This document shows, in pieces, positions 28,975 through 34,803 of a DNA stretch of 49,373 nucleotides. The position numbers were made by a program, and so were the translations under genes. Position 1 is the first letter of the stretch, and each line of letters starts with the position of its first letter. Location: positions 1-49,373 of IMG/VR virus record IMGVR_UViG_3300045825_000148; one strand, given 5' to 3'. The notes below the pieces were generated by a model, which did not search any database, was not told the origin of the DNA, and saw only the letters and a list, made by a program, of their open reading frames with translations. Origin of the DNA: a virus.

Positions 28975-31613
28975 TAATCAGCTCCTAAGTGCGGTTTCGC
29001 CGCAGCCATTGCCGCATTGAGCAGGCGCTTATGCTGCGCGTCCTGTACTTTCTGTTCGTGCAATGCTGCAGACTGCGCCATATCCTGTTGCGATCCGGCG
29101 AGATCATGGACGTGCCCATGCTCCTTATGAATCAACTCCTGATGGTGATTCGTCTGCGCGTGGGCGAGTTCCTGATTGTGCTTCTGGCTCTTGTGGGTCA
29201 AGTCTTGCATCGCTCCTAGCGACTGCAGCTGGGGATCAGGCGCGCCTTGCGCGTTCAAGTCTGCCTTGTGCGCCAGTGCATCGGCGATGAGCTTATCATC
29301 TGCCATCTGCTTCTGGTGCTTCTGGGTATCCTCGTGAATCGCGCCTTCTGCAGTGCCTTTCATCTTGGCAATCGTAAAGTCGTTATCTACTTTCTTCTCC
29401 GCGATGCGGTTCTTATCCTTATCAACTTGCAACTGGGCCTGTTGCAACTGCAACACAGGGTCTTGGGCCGCTTGCTGCGCTTGCTGCTGCGCTGCTTCAG
29501 TCTGGTGCTGTTGTAATAGCTGAGACGCAGCCTGTGCCATTGTTGCACTCAACTGCTTCTCCACTTCAGGAGTCATCTTTTCATCGCCCTGTGGCAGAGG
29601 AGTACCAAGCTGTGCTTCAATCGCATTGCGATAAGCAAACGCCACATGCTCCGCGATGTGTGCCAAAAGGGCTGAAGTTTTCGCCTGCGCATTAGGGTCT
29701 TGGCCAAGTATCGCCGCGATATGAGGGTCTTGCTGCATCGACTGATGCACCTTGAGGTGCGACTCATGATCCTGATAGGCGTATGCCTTAACGGGCTTGC
29801 CGTTGATGACATTCTCGTTCTCTGCAATAGGGTCCCGTGGGGTCTGTTCAATCGAACTCGGTATTAGCTTGTCCAAGTTCTGAATGCCCAAGCCTTCAAG
29901 CAGCTGCCGGTCGAGCTCGACTCTGTCGTATATCGTCGGATTAGCTTGCGCCATTTGCGATACCATTTGGTACTGAACGACACGTTGGGACAACGTTGAG
30001 GCATTAGGATCAGACACAGGAATAATATCCGCTATATCGTAGTCCGCCTGTTTAACCCGACGGCCTTCATCTACATCGTAGTCATACTCCTCTGGCAACT
30101 GGTCTTTAATAATTGCCTTGAGCAATGCAAGCTCCTCCTTCAAGGAGGCGTGTAGCCGCGCCTGTATCGCCGACATGACTTTAAGGCTTCTCTCCAGTAT
30201 CGCTAAGGTCGTACCGACCGGTGCTTGCTGGTTCATATCTGCCGCGTTCACATCAGAGACCGCCGCCATGCGCCGACCTTCTTCGACTACTTCGTTGAAA
30301 AGCTGAAGCAGTGTGGCACTAGGCTCCTTAAAGGGCAGAGGCATTAAGTTATCTCTTAGCGTGCCACTAGGCACGTCTACATCTCTAAATTCTCCGGGGC
30401 TTAACGGATCGCTGTCCCGTTGAACCCTGATCCCTTTGGTTTTATACCCTGCAGGCAGGTTTGCCAGCGTGCCGCAGTCAATAAGTTGACGCAGGATAGA
30501 AGTAGCCGACTTAGCAAAACCACCGACAAGATGCACGAGGCCAAGGCCATAAAAGCCAAAACCCGGAATGTAAATATAGTGAACGAAATGGTTACAACGC
30601 GTTTTGGTTTTGTCATCGATCTTCCAGTTGCGGTAAATGGATAGAACTTCTTTGGAGTGCAGATCAAACGTCACAATGTAGGGCAGCATGATGCCGGTAT
30701 CATCGCCTTCAGCGTCAACATCCTCGTAACCTTCGATCTCCAGCTCAACTTGCATCTCAATCAGCTCTAAACGGTCATCTTTTACAGGTATTACACCGTT
30801 TTTCTTGTCTTCAGGGGTCTGTTTCACGTTCTGTGGCGCATCAGGTAGGTCGATGTCTCTATAAAAGCCCGCATATTGGAGCTTCTTTATATCATTCGGG
30901 CTCTTTTTCATCCGATGCGAGATTCTTGGAGCCGTTGACATGTCAGTTGCGCCATAAGAGACAACTAAATCGTCGGCTGAAACGAAAATCGACGTCTGGC
31001 GGTCCAAAGCAGGGTCAAAATAGACTTTTTTGAACGCAGAACCGGCAATACTGAGGTTCCAGAGCATTCTTTCGTGCTCTGGCCGGTACTCTTTCATCTG
31101 GGTAGTCATACGCCAGTTCATATCAGCCGCAATACGCGTCGCTGCCTGCTCACGCAGTTGGGTTATCTTACCGATAATCGTCGGCTTGCACACGCCTTGT
31201 GCCGAAAATGTCTCGGTTATCGCCTCTGCTTGGAACTTAATGGCTGACTCGGCCATCAGGGGGTGAAATATGCCACAGGCGCCTTCCCACGGTTCTGTCT
31301 TTTCTTCGATGTTAAGTCCGAGAAGTTCGAGACCTTCTTCATAAGTTTTTGACCATTCGGTTCTCGACCGCAGGTCGTTTTCATAAAACTCTTCGCACTC
31401 GTCGGCAATCTTTTGCAGGATTTTATCGCCGAGGTCCTCTGCGAGGTTCTCGTAGAAGCGTTCTTCTGAAAGAGAATTCACGGCTTCAGATGTATCGTCT
31501 TCGGCGTCTTCGCCTTCCTCAGGAGGCAGAATTACTTCTACGTCCATAGGATCAAGGTCCCCGGTCAGGGACTGATAGGAATCTGGGCTTTGCTGTGCTT
31601 GTTTTACGATCAT
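28974..31613 (-). CDS. Portal protein (879 aa)
   Basis: ATG at 31613 is chosen because it overlaps the stop of the HNH gene as ATGA; an upstream start in the same frame adds 29 residues lying inside that gene. The sequence has the portal signature: EFYENDLRSRTEWSKTYEEG, EGACGIFHPLMAESAIKFQA, MNWRMTTQMKEYRPEHERML, then GSAFKKVYFDPALDR and APRISHRMKKSPNDI. The tail is long, helical and Gln/His-rich (about 650-850). It belongs to the group of large podovirus portals (P22-like class). It forms the dodecameric channel through which DNA is packaged and released. Confidence 0.85.
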   Translation of the reverse strand: MIVKQAQQSPDSYQSLTGDLDPMDVEVILPPEEGEDAEDDTSEAVNSLSEERFYENLAEDLGDKILQKIADECEEFYENDLRSRTEWSKTYEEGLELLGLNIEEKTEPWEGACGIFHPLMAESAIKFQAEAITETFSAQGVCKPTIIGKITQLREQAATRIAADMNWRMTTQMKEYRPEHERMLWNLSIAGSAFKKVYFDPALDRQTSIFVSADDLVVSYGATDMSTAPRISHRMKKSPNDIKKLQYAGFYRDIDLPDAPQNVKQTPEDKKNGVIPVKDDRLELIEMQVELEIEGYEDVDAEGDDTGIMLPYIVTFDLHSKEVLSIYRNWKIDDKTKTRCNHFVHYIYIPGFGFYGLGLVHLVGGFAKSATSILRQLIDCGTLANLPAGYKTKGIRVQRDSDPLSPGEFRDVDVPSGTLRDNLMPLPFKEPSATLLQLFNEVVEEGRRMAAVSDVNAADMNQQAPVGTTLAILERSLKVMSAIQARLHASLKEELALLKAIIKDQLPEEYDYDVDEGRRVKQADYDIADIIPVSDPNASTLSQRVVQYQMVSQMAQANPTIYDRVELDRQLLEGLGIQNLDKLIPSSIEQTPRDPIAENENVINGKPVKAYAYQDHESHLKVHQSMQQDPHIAAILGQDPNAQAKTSALLAHIAEHVAFAYRNAIEAQLGTPLPQGDEKMTPEVEKQLSATMAQAASQLLQQHQTEAAQQQAQQAAQDPVLQLQQAQLQVDKDKNRIAEKKVDNDFTIAKMKGTAEGAIHEDTQKHQKQMADDKLIADALAHKADLNAQGAPDPQLQSLGAMQDLTHKSQKHNQELAHAQTNHHQELIHKEHGHVHDLAGSQQDMAQSAALHEQKVQDAQHKRLLNAAMAAAKPHLGAD

Positions 31614-32278
31614 GGCATGTCCGGCCAATACCGGTTTCCTTTCGATTGGTTCATCTTGGCGGGGATAACCGCGATGTTCGCTGCGACATGCAGCCCACAA
31701 ACTAATTTACTGACCAAGGGAACAATATGGTCTATCTGCCAATCGATACTGGTAGCAGTTTTGCGGAGTTTACACAAATCGGAGGCTTCCTGCATGACAA
31801 AATCATCAAGCTCACCGAACCAATCCGGTTTAGATTTTCTGTGCTGCTCAACGCGCTGTTGCTGCGATAGTAACTTTTTATGCCTGTTGGCCGCACGCCA
31901 AGTAGCGCGTGTAGCTGTTTTTCTAGTTTGCGTTTGCGGGTTAGACATGTACAAGCGATAAGCGTCCGCTTCTTGTGCTTTATGCGCTGCGTGGTATTGC
32001 CGCGAGCGCTCATTGGCTTTATCCTTATTTCGGCAGTGCGCCGCGCGCTCTTTAGCCCTAGCCGCATCCACATCCAGCAGGCGCTTAGCGGTTAGTTCCG
32101 CGCAGATACGTTCTTTGTTTTTCGCATAGTACTTTCGGGCAGACGCAGCAGATTCAGCTTTGCGGGTAGCCGCATTATCCAAGGCCCACTTACGTGAGGC
32201 TATTTTAGCTCGCTCTTTGCGCTCCTCATCGGAGAACACGCGGGGACGCCCAATAGGTTTAGCTCTTGTCTTCGTCAT
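31610..32278 (-). CDS. HNH endonuclease between terL and portal (222 aa)
   Basis: The C-terminal 45 residues carry an HNH-type motif: QIDHIVPLV (D183, H184), CGLHVAANI (H197, N201) and KMNQSKGNRYW (N210, K213). The N-terminal 130 residues are very basic and Ala-rich, with a GRPR AT-hook-like piece near 10 and repeated R/K/Y-rich helices, probably for DNA binding. It overlaps TerL (ATGA at 32278) and the portal (ATGA at 31610), so it fits seamlessly between two essential genes. It is presumably a free-standing homing endonuclease; the possible alternative is a nuclease working with the terminase, as for HNH proteins in cos phages. Confidence 0.8.
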   Translation of the reverse strand: MTKTRAKPIGRPRVFSDEERKERAKIASRKWALDNAATRKAESAASARKYYAKNKERICAELTAKRLLDVDAARAKERAAHCRNKDKANERSRQYHAAHKAQEADAYRLYMSNPQTQTRKTATRATWRAANRHKKLLSQQQRVEQHRKSKPDWFGELDDFVMQEASDLCKLRKTATSIDWQIDHIVPLVSKLVCGLHVAANIAVIPAKMNQSKGNRYWPDMP

Positions 32279-34803
32279 CAGTAATATGTCCTTTTGCGTT
32301 TCCAGCCAGACTCTTCGTCCTTTTCATCAGTATCGAGACGGATGAACCCGCCAGTACGGAACCGACGCAGTATAAGTGTAGCACAGTCTACCTGATCGTC
32401 GTGATCCCCGTTGGGAAAATCTGAGCACTCCTCAATCAACTCCATAGCCCACCGCTTAGACTTAGGTATCCACACGAGACCGGAGGTAAAAATGTCCGTA
32501 ACTGAATTCACTCGAGCAATCTTATCTTGACCCCGACCGGGTGTGAATTCTGAGACGGGCACGCCCATGTTGCGCAGCTCCTGAAACAGTACCGACCCAG
32601 AACTTTTCTTCTCTATGACGAACGTGTCTACTTCCCAGCGTTTATACTCTTCAAGCATCGCCTTTTTTAATTCTGGGTACTCTAAGCGCTGTTTCCACGC
32701 ATCTAAACATATGATGTTCGCCTTTTCGCGTTCATCGTAGAAAACTCCCCATACTTGCCACGCAGTGTAGTCCGCCCTATTGTTTGTCTCCTGTGCTGCA
32801 TCAACACCCATGATCAAATATTCGCAGTTTGGTGGGTCCTCTTTCTCCCAGTCGTTCCACCATTCCCGTTTTATTAAAGCACCAGCTTCTCCGGTGGGGT
32901 TCTGCATGTACTGGGCGTTCCAGAACTGCGGAGCCATGTTGGCTTTTTTCTGCAGGAGCAGGTTCAAGGGCCAGCGTTCGGGCCAGAGACTCTTTTGATC
33001 CTCGCCTTCGCCGAAGATCGCCGGGAATTCGACAACTTCCCATTGCTCCGCTTCCGGGTCCGAGGCCATCTTCGCCTGCAGCTTGCCGATCAAGTCCAGC
33101 TTGGACCAGCGGGTATGAATAATAATTACGGCACCGTCCGGGGCGAGACGCTGCAACGGACCGGTCTGAAACCAGTTATAAGCTTCTTCGAACACCTGCG
33201 TGTTTCCGGAGCGTACTATATCTTCGCTGAACGGGTCATCGATGACCACGAGGTTTGCGCCGCGTCCAGCTAAAGCACCGCCGATACCACAATTATGCGT
33301 GAGGATACCTGACGCTATGAAGGCGTTTGTTCTCGATACGTGAAAGTTTATAAAGGGCCGCGGTTCGTGGGTCGATATATCCAACTGGGTTATTCTACGA
33401 ACTCCCAGCAATAACCCAAATAAGTCCTCCGCTGTTTCTCTAGCACGCGCCAAATGGCTTTCAGCGCTGCGCCGGGGTTTCCCGGGTTGACGCTCCGAGC
33501 AGCATCGACCATACAACCATGCTGCTGTACGTCTAAGCCATCCGTGGTTGACTGTTGTATCGGGCGATTCCAGTTCTTCCTCCGGCCTTTGTCCGTGCGT
33601 ATGGCATCCTCGTGACCTAGCCCCATCTGTTTTATACGATACCGTAGGGTCCCAAGCTCTACCCCCGCCAAACGTGCAGCAATAGCTAACGGAACTATCT
33701 CCCCCTTGATGTGCAACAGCACAGTACTGCGCTTGTTGTTCGCCTGCTCTATCGGCGTAGCCCAGCGGCAATTCTCCGGACTGTAAGGACCCATATTGTC
33801 CACGCGATCTACCGTATGCTGCGGTGTCGGCTGCGGCCCCATATCCGAGGCAAAGTTTGCATATGTCAGCCACCTTTCGCACACCGTTATCCCACGACCC
33901 CCGTAGTCGGGCCATTTTTCGTTCCGTGGATTGCAGCATCTTGATTTTATGTTGTACCAGCGCCGATATAGCGAGGTGTTCCATAATGTAGTCATACAAG
34001 CTCCTTAAGAAGGCCTGCATTATATCATAAATACTCTCCACATGCAATAGATCGTTAATACTCGCCTCATCTGCTGCGATCCACCCGCGGCTGAAAACCC
34101 ATATAGGGTGTTTGCTGGAGCAGCGGAGCTGATTCAGTGTTACGGTGCTTTTGTGGGTGCTATGAAACACATTTAGCACCACCCCGGTAGAGAGCCTATC
34201 TCCGACGCATATATCGCAAGCGGCTGTAACGCCATCTATAAGGGTGTCCGGGGTAATACAGGCAAAGAATTCACCCCCGTCGTTTGTTGCCCACTGGCCT
34301 GCGGCCTTCGAGTCCATCTTAAGTTCTACTTTCGGGAATACGGTTCTGTATTCAGCCGTGTTAACCAAATCGCGAATCTTCCGCCCGAAGCCGACAGCAA
34401 GGTCTGCTGTGTGCGAGGCCATGATCAGCCGCCGGTTCGGAAATTGGCCGAGATACCAAGCGGGGAATAGATATGAAGATAGCAAGGATTTACCCATACG
34501 CGGGGCAATCGATATCATGATGCGTTTTTTCTCCCCGCGGGCGACGGCACCCATCAGCGCAGCAATCTTTTTGTGATGCGGTCCAACCATAAAGACCTTG
34601 GGTTCAGTTTCGATCTGAAGCACCGGTGCCATACGCTGCGCGAAGGCGAGTAGGGAAATGCGGCTATTAGCCGCCGACTTCCGGTCGGCAATCTCCGTCA
34701 AAAGTTCGAGCGTCTTCGCCTGCTCGCCTGCGGGCAGCTTATGCAGATTTGCCAAAATCCCCCGGATTTGGTCGGCAGAAAAGTCGAGAGTGGCGCTAAG
34801 CAC
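32278..34803 (-). CDS. terL: Terminase large subunit, intein-containing precursor (841 aa)
   Basis: The ATPase half has Walker A (SIAPRMGKS, ending about residue 106) and Walker B (LVVIDDP, D522-D523); the nuclease half has MGVDAAQ (D668), FVIEKKSSG (E731) and GDHDDQVD (D802-D806). Between residues 182 and 504 lies a 323-aa intein whose removal gives a 518-aa terminase, the usual size. The intein sits right before the CGIGGALAGRGANL segment that leads into Walker B, a conserved active-site region. The start overlaps the TerS gene end. It packages DNA with the portal. The DNA of the intein also contains a nested HNH gene, described separately. Confidence 0.9.
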   Translation of the reverse strand: MLSATLDFSADQIRGILANLHKLPAGEQAKTLELLTEIADRKSAANSRISLLAFAQRMAPVLQIETEPKVFMVGPHHKKIAALMGAVARGEKKRIMISIAPRMGKSLLSSYLFPAWYLGQFPNRRLIMASHTADLAVGFGRKIRDLVNTAEYRTVFPKVELKMDSKAAGQWATNDGGEFFACITPDTLIDGVTAACDICVGDRLSTGVVLNVFHSTHKSTVTLNQLRCSSKHPIWVFSRGWIAADEASINDLLHVESIYDIMQAFLRSLYDYIMEHLAISALVQHKIKMLQSTERKMARLRGSWDNGVRKVADICKLCLGYGAAADTAAYGRSRGQYGSLQSGELPLGYADRAGEQQAQYCAVAHQGGDSSVSYCCTFGGGRAWDPTVSYKTDGARSRGCHTHGQRPEEELESPDTTVNHGWLRRTAAWLYGRCCSERQPGKPRRSAESHLARARETAEDLFGLLLGVRRITQLDISTHEPRPFINFHVSRTNAFIASGILTHNCGIGGALAGRGANLVVIDDPFSEDIVRSGNTQVFEEAYNWFQTGPLQRLAPDGAVIIIHTRWSKLDLIGKLQAKMASDPEAEQWEVVEFPAIFGEGEDQKSLWPERWPLNLLLQKKANMAPQFWNAQYMQNPTGEAGALIKREWWNDWEKEDPPNCEYLIMGVDAAQETNNRADYTAWQVWGVFYDEREKANIICLDAWKQRLEYPELKKAMLEEYKRWEVDTFVIEKKSSGSVLFQELRNMGVPVSEFTPGRGQDKIARVNSVTDIFTSGLVWIPKSKRWAMELIEECSDFPNGDHDDQVDCATLILRRFRTGGFIRLDTDEKDEESGWKRKRTYY
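33292..34260 (-). other. Intein within TerL
   Basis: The intein starts at Cys182 (block A: CITPDTLIDG), has block B with a CSSKHPIW element (the His of the TxxH motif) and ends with block F/G (FINFHVSRTNAFIASG, then ILTHN) followed by Cys505 as the first extein residue. N504 and H503 are the splice-junction residues. The sequences at the ends are conventional, so splicing should be autocatalytic. Residues about 182-268 and about 472-504 make up the splicing domain of roughly 120 residues; the 200 residues between have no endonuclease motif in this frame, because the endonuclease is written in another frame. Confidence 0.9.
33390..33995 (-). CDS. HNH homing endonuclease nested out of frame in the intein (201 aa)
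   Basis: A complete frame shifted by one base relative to TerL. Residues 1-90 match the HNH/AP2-type homing endonucleases: YRRWYNIKSRCCNPRNEKW, YGGRGITVCERWL, ANFASDMGPQP, TVDRVDNMGPYSPENCRWAT, EQANNKRS (H60, D63, N75 and N86/N87 as metal-centre candidates). The rest (about 90-201) is a basic DNA-binding region ending LGYCWEFVE. AAGGAG lies 5 bases before ATG (34001-34006), so it is translated on its own from within the terL message. It presumably cuts intein-free terL alleles, giving homing of the intein plus this gene as a unit. Confidence 0.9.
   Translation of the reverse strand: MTTLWNTSLYRRWYNIKSRCCNPRNEKWPDYGGRGITVCERWLTYANFASDMGPQPTPQHTVDRVDNMGPYSPENCRWATPIEQANNKRSTVLLHIKGEIVPLAIAARLAGVELGTLRYRIKQMGLGHEDAIRTDKGRRKNWNRPIQQSTTDGLDVQQHGCMVDAARSVNPGNPGAALKAIWRVLEKQRRTYLGYCWEFVE

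Follow-up and report, generated by a model that had tools for sequence, protein, structure and literature searches.

A terminase intein with a putative homing endonuclease encoded in a different reading frame

The window analyzed here is the whole of an IMG/VR virus record (IMGVR_UViG_3300045825_000148; 49,373 bases). Its gene for the large terminase subunit (terL) is interrupted by an intein, and the intein DNA also contains a complete HNH-type endonuclease gene written in a second reading frame. The features of the locus are listed below.

32278-34803, minus strand: terL precursor open reading frame (ORF), 841 amino acids, GTG start, stop-free; matches Terminase_6C (E = 2e-11), TIGR01630 (E = 2.7e-19) and, by tblastn, phage TerLs
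34803-34261, minus strand: N-extein of TerL
34260-33292, minus strand: intein in the TerL frame, 323 amino acids, residues 182-504, Cys1 to His-Asn followed by Cys+1
33291-32278, minus strand: C-extein of TerL
33996-34260, minus strand: N-terminal Hint half, about 88 codons ahead of the HNH ATG, assigned with AlphaFold2 and a Foldseek match to gp41-1
34105-34122, minus strand: intein block B, CSSKHP, with the predicted catalytic His51
34001-34006, minus strand: Shine-Dalgarno sequence AAGGAG, 5 nucleotides before the HNH ATG; coding sequence in the TerL frame
33390-33995, minus strand: HNH homing-type endonuclease gene, 201 amino acids, ATG start, frame +1 relative to TerL; phrog_3377, I-HmuI-like model
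33292-33389, minus strand: C-terminal Hint half with blocks F and G and ILTHN, assigned from the intein alignment and AlphaFold2
33289-33291, minus strand: Cys505, the +1 extein residue, assigned by comparison with empty-site relatives

The original prediction, made from the sequence alone, described a TerL interrupted at Cys182 by an intein with a CSSKHP motif and an ILTHN end followed by Cys505. Its coordinates, motifs and spliced length are correct. The intein begins with CITPDT at residue 182 and ends with ILTHN at residue 504, and TerL minus the intein is 518 amino acids long. The complete HNH gene at 33390-33995, its one-base shift and the AAGGAG five bases before its ATG were also confirmed. 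The junctions were checked, as had been proposed, against intein-free relatives with 70-76% TerL identity. These read GGEYYA-VGVGGALAGRGA where the window reads GGEFFA/C...N/CGIGGALAGRGA (slashes mark the junctions), which fixes both junctions.

A search for similar loci had been proposed, and a scan of viral contigs with the intein profile found 16 full-length relatives and two further partial ones. The window and the 16 full-length relatives constitute the type A set (L041 and L049 are the same contigs as L023 and L030). The splicing residues Cys1, His51, His322 and Asn323 are invariant in type A in an alignment of 15 inteins, as are Cys47, Ser48, His51 and Pro52 of block B, so the intein blocks whose conservation had been in question are retained. 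The LTHN/C junction is present in 17/17 invaded type A genes. The +1 residue is Cys in all 17 invaded terL genes and Val, Ala or Thr in the 11 empty sites that could be read, and this restriction of Cys to invaded sites fits an intein that carries its +1 residue with it.

Searched against the PDB, the type A intein profile hits gp41-1 (E = 5.6e-11) and NrdJ-1 (E = 5e-7), both split inteins of fractured genes. The AlphaFold2 model of the intein has confident Hint halves at residues 1-80 and about 290-323, with block predicted local distance difference test (pLDDT) values of 69-91 over residues 1-80. Foldseek with this model returned 68 PDB matches that are mostly inteins or Hint domains, with gp41-1 ranked first (best E = 1.4e-3, probability 1.00). 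These sequence features and the model support the assignment of the window element as a bona fide intein that would splice. The residues between the halves are predicted to be disordered, with pLDDT below 50 at every position but one from 89 to 239, which agrees with the description of the TerL frame over the HNH gene as a low-information linker. Group I introns of phages typically encode HNH endonucleases, and the insert could in principle be a group I or II intron with an HNH ORF that is removed as RNA, its likeness to an intein being secondary. This explanation is highly improbable given the lack of an Rfam intron match in the window, the frame that is open end to end in 17/17 loci, and the conserved Hint motifs, Hint fold and +1 Cys.

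The protein in the second frame belongs to the phrog_3377 HNH endonucleases (E = 1.5e-46), and over residues 7-133 it aligns with common HNHs that phages encode as free-standing genes, D3 orf78 among them. The AlphaFold model has a mean pLDDT of 87.5, and a fold search with it gave I-HmuI as the top and sole significant PDB match (E = 8.8e-4, probability 1.00). The template modeling (TM) score to I-HmuI over the whole alignment is 0.30 with a root mean square deviation of 10, and the low global score is attributed to domain orientation or divergence. A sequence search of the PDB with the HNH returned nothing meaningful, and the protein was not recognized in a Pfam search. Arg64, Asp66, Asn75 and Asn87 are invariant or nearly so in the family alignment. 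The C-terminal domain may be NUMOD1/IENR1-like.

The dual-frame arrangement is conserved throughout type A. All 16 full-length relatives share the intein of the window and its terL site, and each has an HNH of 189-206 amino acids from the ATG in the same +1 frame; the intein frame is stop-free end to end in 17/17 loci. Synonymous shuffles of the HNH genes predict 5.8-9.2 stops in the TerL frame and each of the 17 has none (P at most 6e-4 each), with 4-15 stops in the third frame over the HNH. The claim that both frames stay open in the window is borne out by 9.15 predicted and 0 observed TerL-frame stops, 0/20,000 stop-free shuffles and 15 stops in the third frame. In free-standing HNH homologs (L024-L029) the corresponding frame is broken by 6-11 stops. 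A chance overlap of frames is ruled out by the shuffles, the third-frame comparison and the free-standing controls.

Selection acts differently on the two frames, as a per-frame analysis of substitutions, proposed with the original prediction, revealed. Substitutions in close pairs concentrate at HNH third codon positions (9/6/44 for L042/L044 and 32/18/93 for L032/L035), and the ratio of nonsynonymous to synonymous change (omega) in the HNH frame is approximately 0.06-0.2 in informative close pairs, indicating purifying selection; these estimates come from simple counting, and some pairs contribute small numbers. In the same comparisons, TerL-frame residues that overlap the HNH are almost free to change, and no stop ever arises. 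The linker therefore appears to be constrained mainly to stay open, as judged from the substitutions and the model. A functional linker is disfavored by the AlphaFold2 disorder and the little constraint in close pairs, the divergent pairs being too few to weigh against weak constraint. The HNH itself can be lost. The window-type intein on the contig of L030 (L049, 1178-1819) keeps its open frame, and its HNH has internal deletions that remove the catalytic core. This intein lacks the HNH middle, and therefore the HNH can decay while the intein persists.

The HNH ATG is preceded by a purine-rich Shine-Dalgarno-like stretch in 17/17 type A loci, and the position of this start is conserved. Endonuclease expression uncoupled from splicing, as originally proposed, is supported by this conserved start and by the purifying selection on the HNH frame. 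The alternative is that translation from the terL start, through programmed frameshifting or as a fusion protein, is the sole source of the HNH. The two frames share a transcript, and the HNH-frame opening spans nearly the whole intein at two loci of the other types described below (L055 and L056). Nevertheless, we consider this quite improbable given the uniform placement of the Shine-Dalgarno sequence and ATG.

The distribution and phylogeny of the element point to mobility. The window TerL is nested among empty-site TerLs in the extein tree (support 96/94), and presence and absence of the intein on this tree amount to four changes. Intein-borne HNHs form one clade against the free-standing ones in the HNH tree (99/98). 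The HNH data reject two extein-supported groupings (approximately unbiased [AU] test, p = 0.004 and 0.03) that were chosen after the identity tables were seen. The HNH thus displays both presence/absence variation and conflict with the host gene tree. These data also bear on the idea that the intein splices and the HNH is a packaging accessory that assists TerL, as HK97 gp74-type proteins do, or a host-competition nuclease, and is not a homing enzyme. HNH genes are common beside terL, and free-standing relatives of a second HNH type, type B, adjoin terL in phages BP10, vB_EauM-23, PAE1 and CL2. Either role is nonetheless unlikely, since close TerL relatives have or lack the element as a whole, the HNH and extein trees disagree, L030/L049 keeps the intein without the HNH catalytic parts, and the protein has an I-HmuI-like fold and is of the D3 orf78-like phage HNH type (phrog_3377).

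The same architecture recurs with unrelated parts. The type B intein, first met in L052, is located at a TerL nuclease-domain motif (for example, HDDQ/C...N/CDA) and carries an HNH_3-type enzyme in the +2 frame; intein and HNH are both unrelated to those of the window, and the terL site is another one. Type B is present but unannotated in Tetrasphaera phage TJE1, Acinetobacter phage Highwayman and Rhodobacteraceae phage LS06-2018-MD07. A survey with a full-intein-frame query covered the best 80 of at least 416 IMG/VR matches, and 80/80 loci have a +2-frame HNH and an open intein frame, a figure that is biased toward the dual-frame architecture because best-scoring matches to a full-length query were taken. 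The surveyed loci fall into 72 clusters at 60% identity and span a guanine-cytosine (GC) content of 28-64%. The HNH proteins predict 217 intein-frame stops; none is observed, and the third frame has 1471. A genome-wide search of bacterial genomes found no type A intein, and 5/7 of the type B matches in bacterial genomes are dual-frame inteins, including one in Bacteroides mediterraneensis. Another of the seven is a mini-intein of 134 amino acids without an HNH, which occupies the type B terL site on a contig of a Selenomonadaceae metagenome-assembled genome (L152, 3001-3402). A crude scan detected a Shine-Dalgarno-like motif with a start codon in only 32/72 type B clusters, and the TJE1 HNH has no clear Shine-Dalgarno sequence.

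L050/L051 and Gordonia phage Clown have a type C intein, which is located just before Walker B and whose +1 frame encodes a zinc-finger HNH. The Clown locus (L056, 2385-3500) has a 372-codon HNH-frame opening over nearly the whole intein, with several zinc-finger-like CxxC pairs. The open intein frame is only weakly unexpected at single GC-rich type B and C loci (P = 0.002 to 0.12 for L050, L052 and L054-L056), and the support from such loci is in their numbers and the converse test, not in single open frames. Overall, the dual-frame arrangement is kept intact in about a hundred related phages and is stable in types A and B.

An in-frame endonuclease with a sequencing frameshift would produce the same appearance, an artefact that could affect any one metagenomic contig taken alone. 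No in-frame HNH was found among the 17 type A loci or the best 80 type B loci. The one-base offset of the window recurs at the 16 further type A loci, so that 17 divergent contigs share it with both intein ends in one frame, and the analogous type B family adds 80 contigs and several named phage genomes. The artefact is refuted by these homologs, and its probability is negligible.

Type B also includes the relatives that connect dual-frame inteins to other arrangements. The free-standing HNHs of BP10, vB_EauM-23, PAE1 and CL2 adjoin intein-free terL genes, and that of BP10 is 50% identical to the hidden HNH of Highwayman. Free-standing HNHs beside terL and the absence of an in-frame version suggest that the HNH entered as an independent gene. 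Vibrio phage 1.245.O (L155) has a fractured type B intein, which matches the dual-frame ones in its kind of terL site, its HNH type and its +2 offset. Its ORF for TerL and the N-intein ends at 2534, the HNH_B gene (E = 4.6e-21) overlaps this end and continues past it, and an ORF for the C-intein and C-extein runs from 3072 in the original frame, with 14 stops in the old intein frame between the halves. The observed states thus comprise a free HNH next to terL, a mini-intein, a dual-frame intein, an intein whose HNH has decayed and a split intein at a fractured locus, given here in an order that no tree polarizes. The original prediction saw the window locus as an intermediate between in-frame and fractured inteins. 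The link to fractured loci stands, based on Vibrio phage 1.245.O and the similarity to gp41-1 and NrdJ-1. The notion of a merely transient stage derived from an in-frame intein is not supported, as the arrangement is stable in the 17 type A loci and in 80/80 of the best type B loci.

Several other arrangements were seen in passing. The terL of L155 (3-3386) holds an in-frame LAGLIDADG intein, followed further on by the fractured one. A conventional in-frame intein with a LAGLIDADG-like AGLIDTDGT motif sits at the Walker A/P-loop of another TerL (L006, 1794-4412; RMGK/L..N/S), and a mini-intein of about 150 residues without an endonuclease occupies a different site in a third (L009, 2536-4653; VIH/C...HN/TRW). 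Serratia phage 92A1 (L057, 1061-4023) has a fractured T4-like terL composed of the N-part with N-intein, a 240-amino acid ORF that looks GIY-YIG-like, and the C-intein with C-part. The nrdA of Klebsiella phage KP13-7 (L058) is seemingly fractured into several pieces, with GIY-YIG-like and HNH-like ORFs between intein parts. A second, unrelated HNH/endonuclease VII-like ORF of 222 amino acids (31610-32278, minus strand; phrog_26577 and phrog_1035) is present in the window, flanked by terL and by the next large ORF, which is presumably that of the portal protein.

We interpret the window element as a mobile intein with a homing endonuclease encoded inside it in a different frame, a reading to which we assign a probability of about 0.8. 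It is built on computational observations of the anatomy, junctions, dual-frame conservation, splicing residues, folds, presence and absence, and the conflict between HNH and extein trees. Ribosomes starting at the terL start codon would read the whole locus to give a TerL-intein precursor. Between the Hint halves this precursor would have a flexible linker of about 150-200 residues, a by-product of HNH DNA read in the wrong frame, and the halves would fold together, excise the intein and ligate TerL. Ribosomes starting at the internal Shine-Dalgarno sequence and ATG would make a separate 201-residue I-HmuI-like HNH endonuclease. In co-infection this enzyme would cut intein-free terL at the insertion site, and repair would copy intein and endonuclease together. 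Selection would act on the HNH frame through the protein that it encodes, and on the TerL frame through the Hint ends and the need for a stop-free stretch between them. The element may have originated from a mini-intein that took up a free-standing HNH gene, and loss of the open frame may turn it into a fractured split-intein locus.

Several points weigh against this interpretation. Splicing, internal initiation, the cleavage target and homing are steps that we infer. The window intein scores 13.0 bits against a Pfam intein cut-off of 35.8 and 14.1 bits against an NCBIfam cut-off of 15.6. These cut-offs are detection thresholds and not biochemical features; the window intein is therefore divergent. 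Type A is confined to metagenomic contigs, with no match in named phages and no cultured member found. His60, the first His of the canonical HNH triad, is not strictly conserved (L042/L044 and L045 differ), so HNH catalysis is presumed. The HNH tree backbone is poorly resolved, with 5/17 branches starred, and the AU groupings were selected post hoc.

Fractured genes in which a free-standing endonuclease lies between the halves of a split intein (gp41-1, NrdJ-1) were reportedly described by Dassa et al. in 2009. The window resembles them in having a separate, putatively expressed endonuclease gene between intein halves, and gp41-1 and NrdJ-1 are the nearest sequence relatives of its intein. Fractured split inteins consist of two ORFs, whereas the window has one continuous 841-amino acid frame and would not need trans-splicing. 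Collaborative homing of free-standing endonucleases with splicing elements is known for group I introns. Type B resembles it in the free-standing HNHs beside intein-free terL, whereas the window endonuclease is already inside the splicing element. In-frame LAGLIDADG or HNH inteins, such as PI-SceI and the mycobacteriophage TerL inteins (PMC5050341), also have an endonuclease between the Hint halves, and the latter are likewise inserted at a conserved TerL ATPase motif. Their endonuclease is part of the intein polypeptide, whereas that of the window would be translated from another frame as a protein of its own. Among published cases, the ShiLan domain and Pacc40 insertion of phage DNA methylases come nearest (Arsenault, Gosselin, Gogarten 2025, PMC11855218). 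As in the window, the ShiLan insertion is stop-free in the host frame, has an out-of-frame HNH and is sporadic among related phages. In contrast, splicing domains are not detectable in it and its authors regard it as a lasting part of the methylase, whereas the window has Hint motifs, the +1 Cys and a predicted Hint fold. The ShiLan HNH starts with GTG and lacks a ribosome-binding site, unlike the window HNH with its Shine-Dalgarno sequence and ATG, and the window host gene is essential. No description of an intein with an out-of-frame endonuclease was found in the open-license literature searched. The element is filed as an intein of a new variant because it has the defining sequence features and no open-license precedent; it is not filed as a fractured split intein because it is a single ORF, nor with ShiLan because splicing domains are present. 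We judge it to be a widespread new variant of mobile intein.

We also think it probable that this dual-frame intein is a widespread third architecture of mobile inteins, with several origins involving unrelated HNHs at different terL sites, that it is the rule for HNH-bearing terL inteins, and that it is the direct source of fractured split inteins; the endonuclease would at no stage belong to the intein protein. Textbook inteins combine the splicing domain and the endonuclease in one chain, and dual-frame elements separate the two by reading frame. Splicing and DNA cutting could then evolve, be expressed and decay independently, with the shared DNA under a two-frame constraint. Annotation missed these large hidden genes even in the well-known phages TJE1, Clown and Highwayman. 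The architecture offers a concrete route for free endonucleases into inteins, with relatives available for several of the steps, and a possible birth route for split inteins, which are widely used in protein engineering. If this is correct, stops entering the shared stretch would turn a dual-frame locus into a split intein with a free-standing endonuclease gene between its halves.

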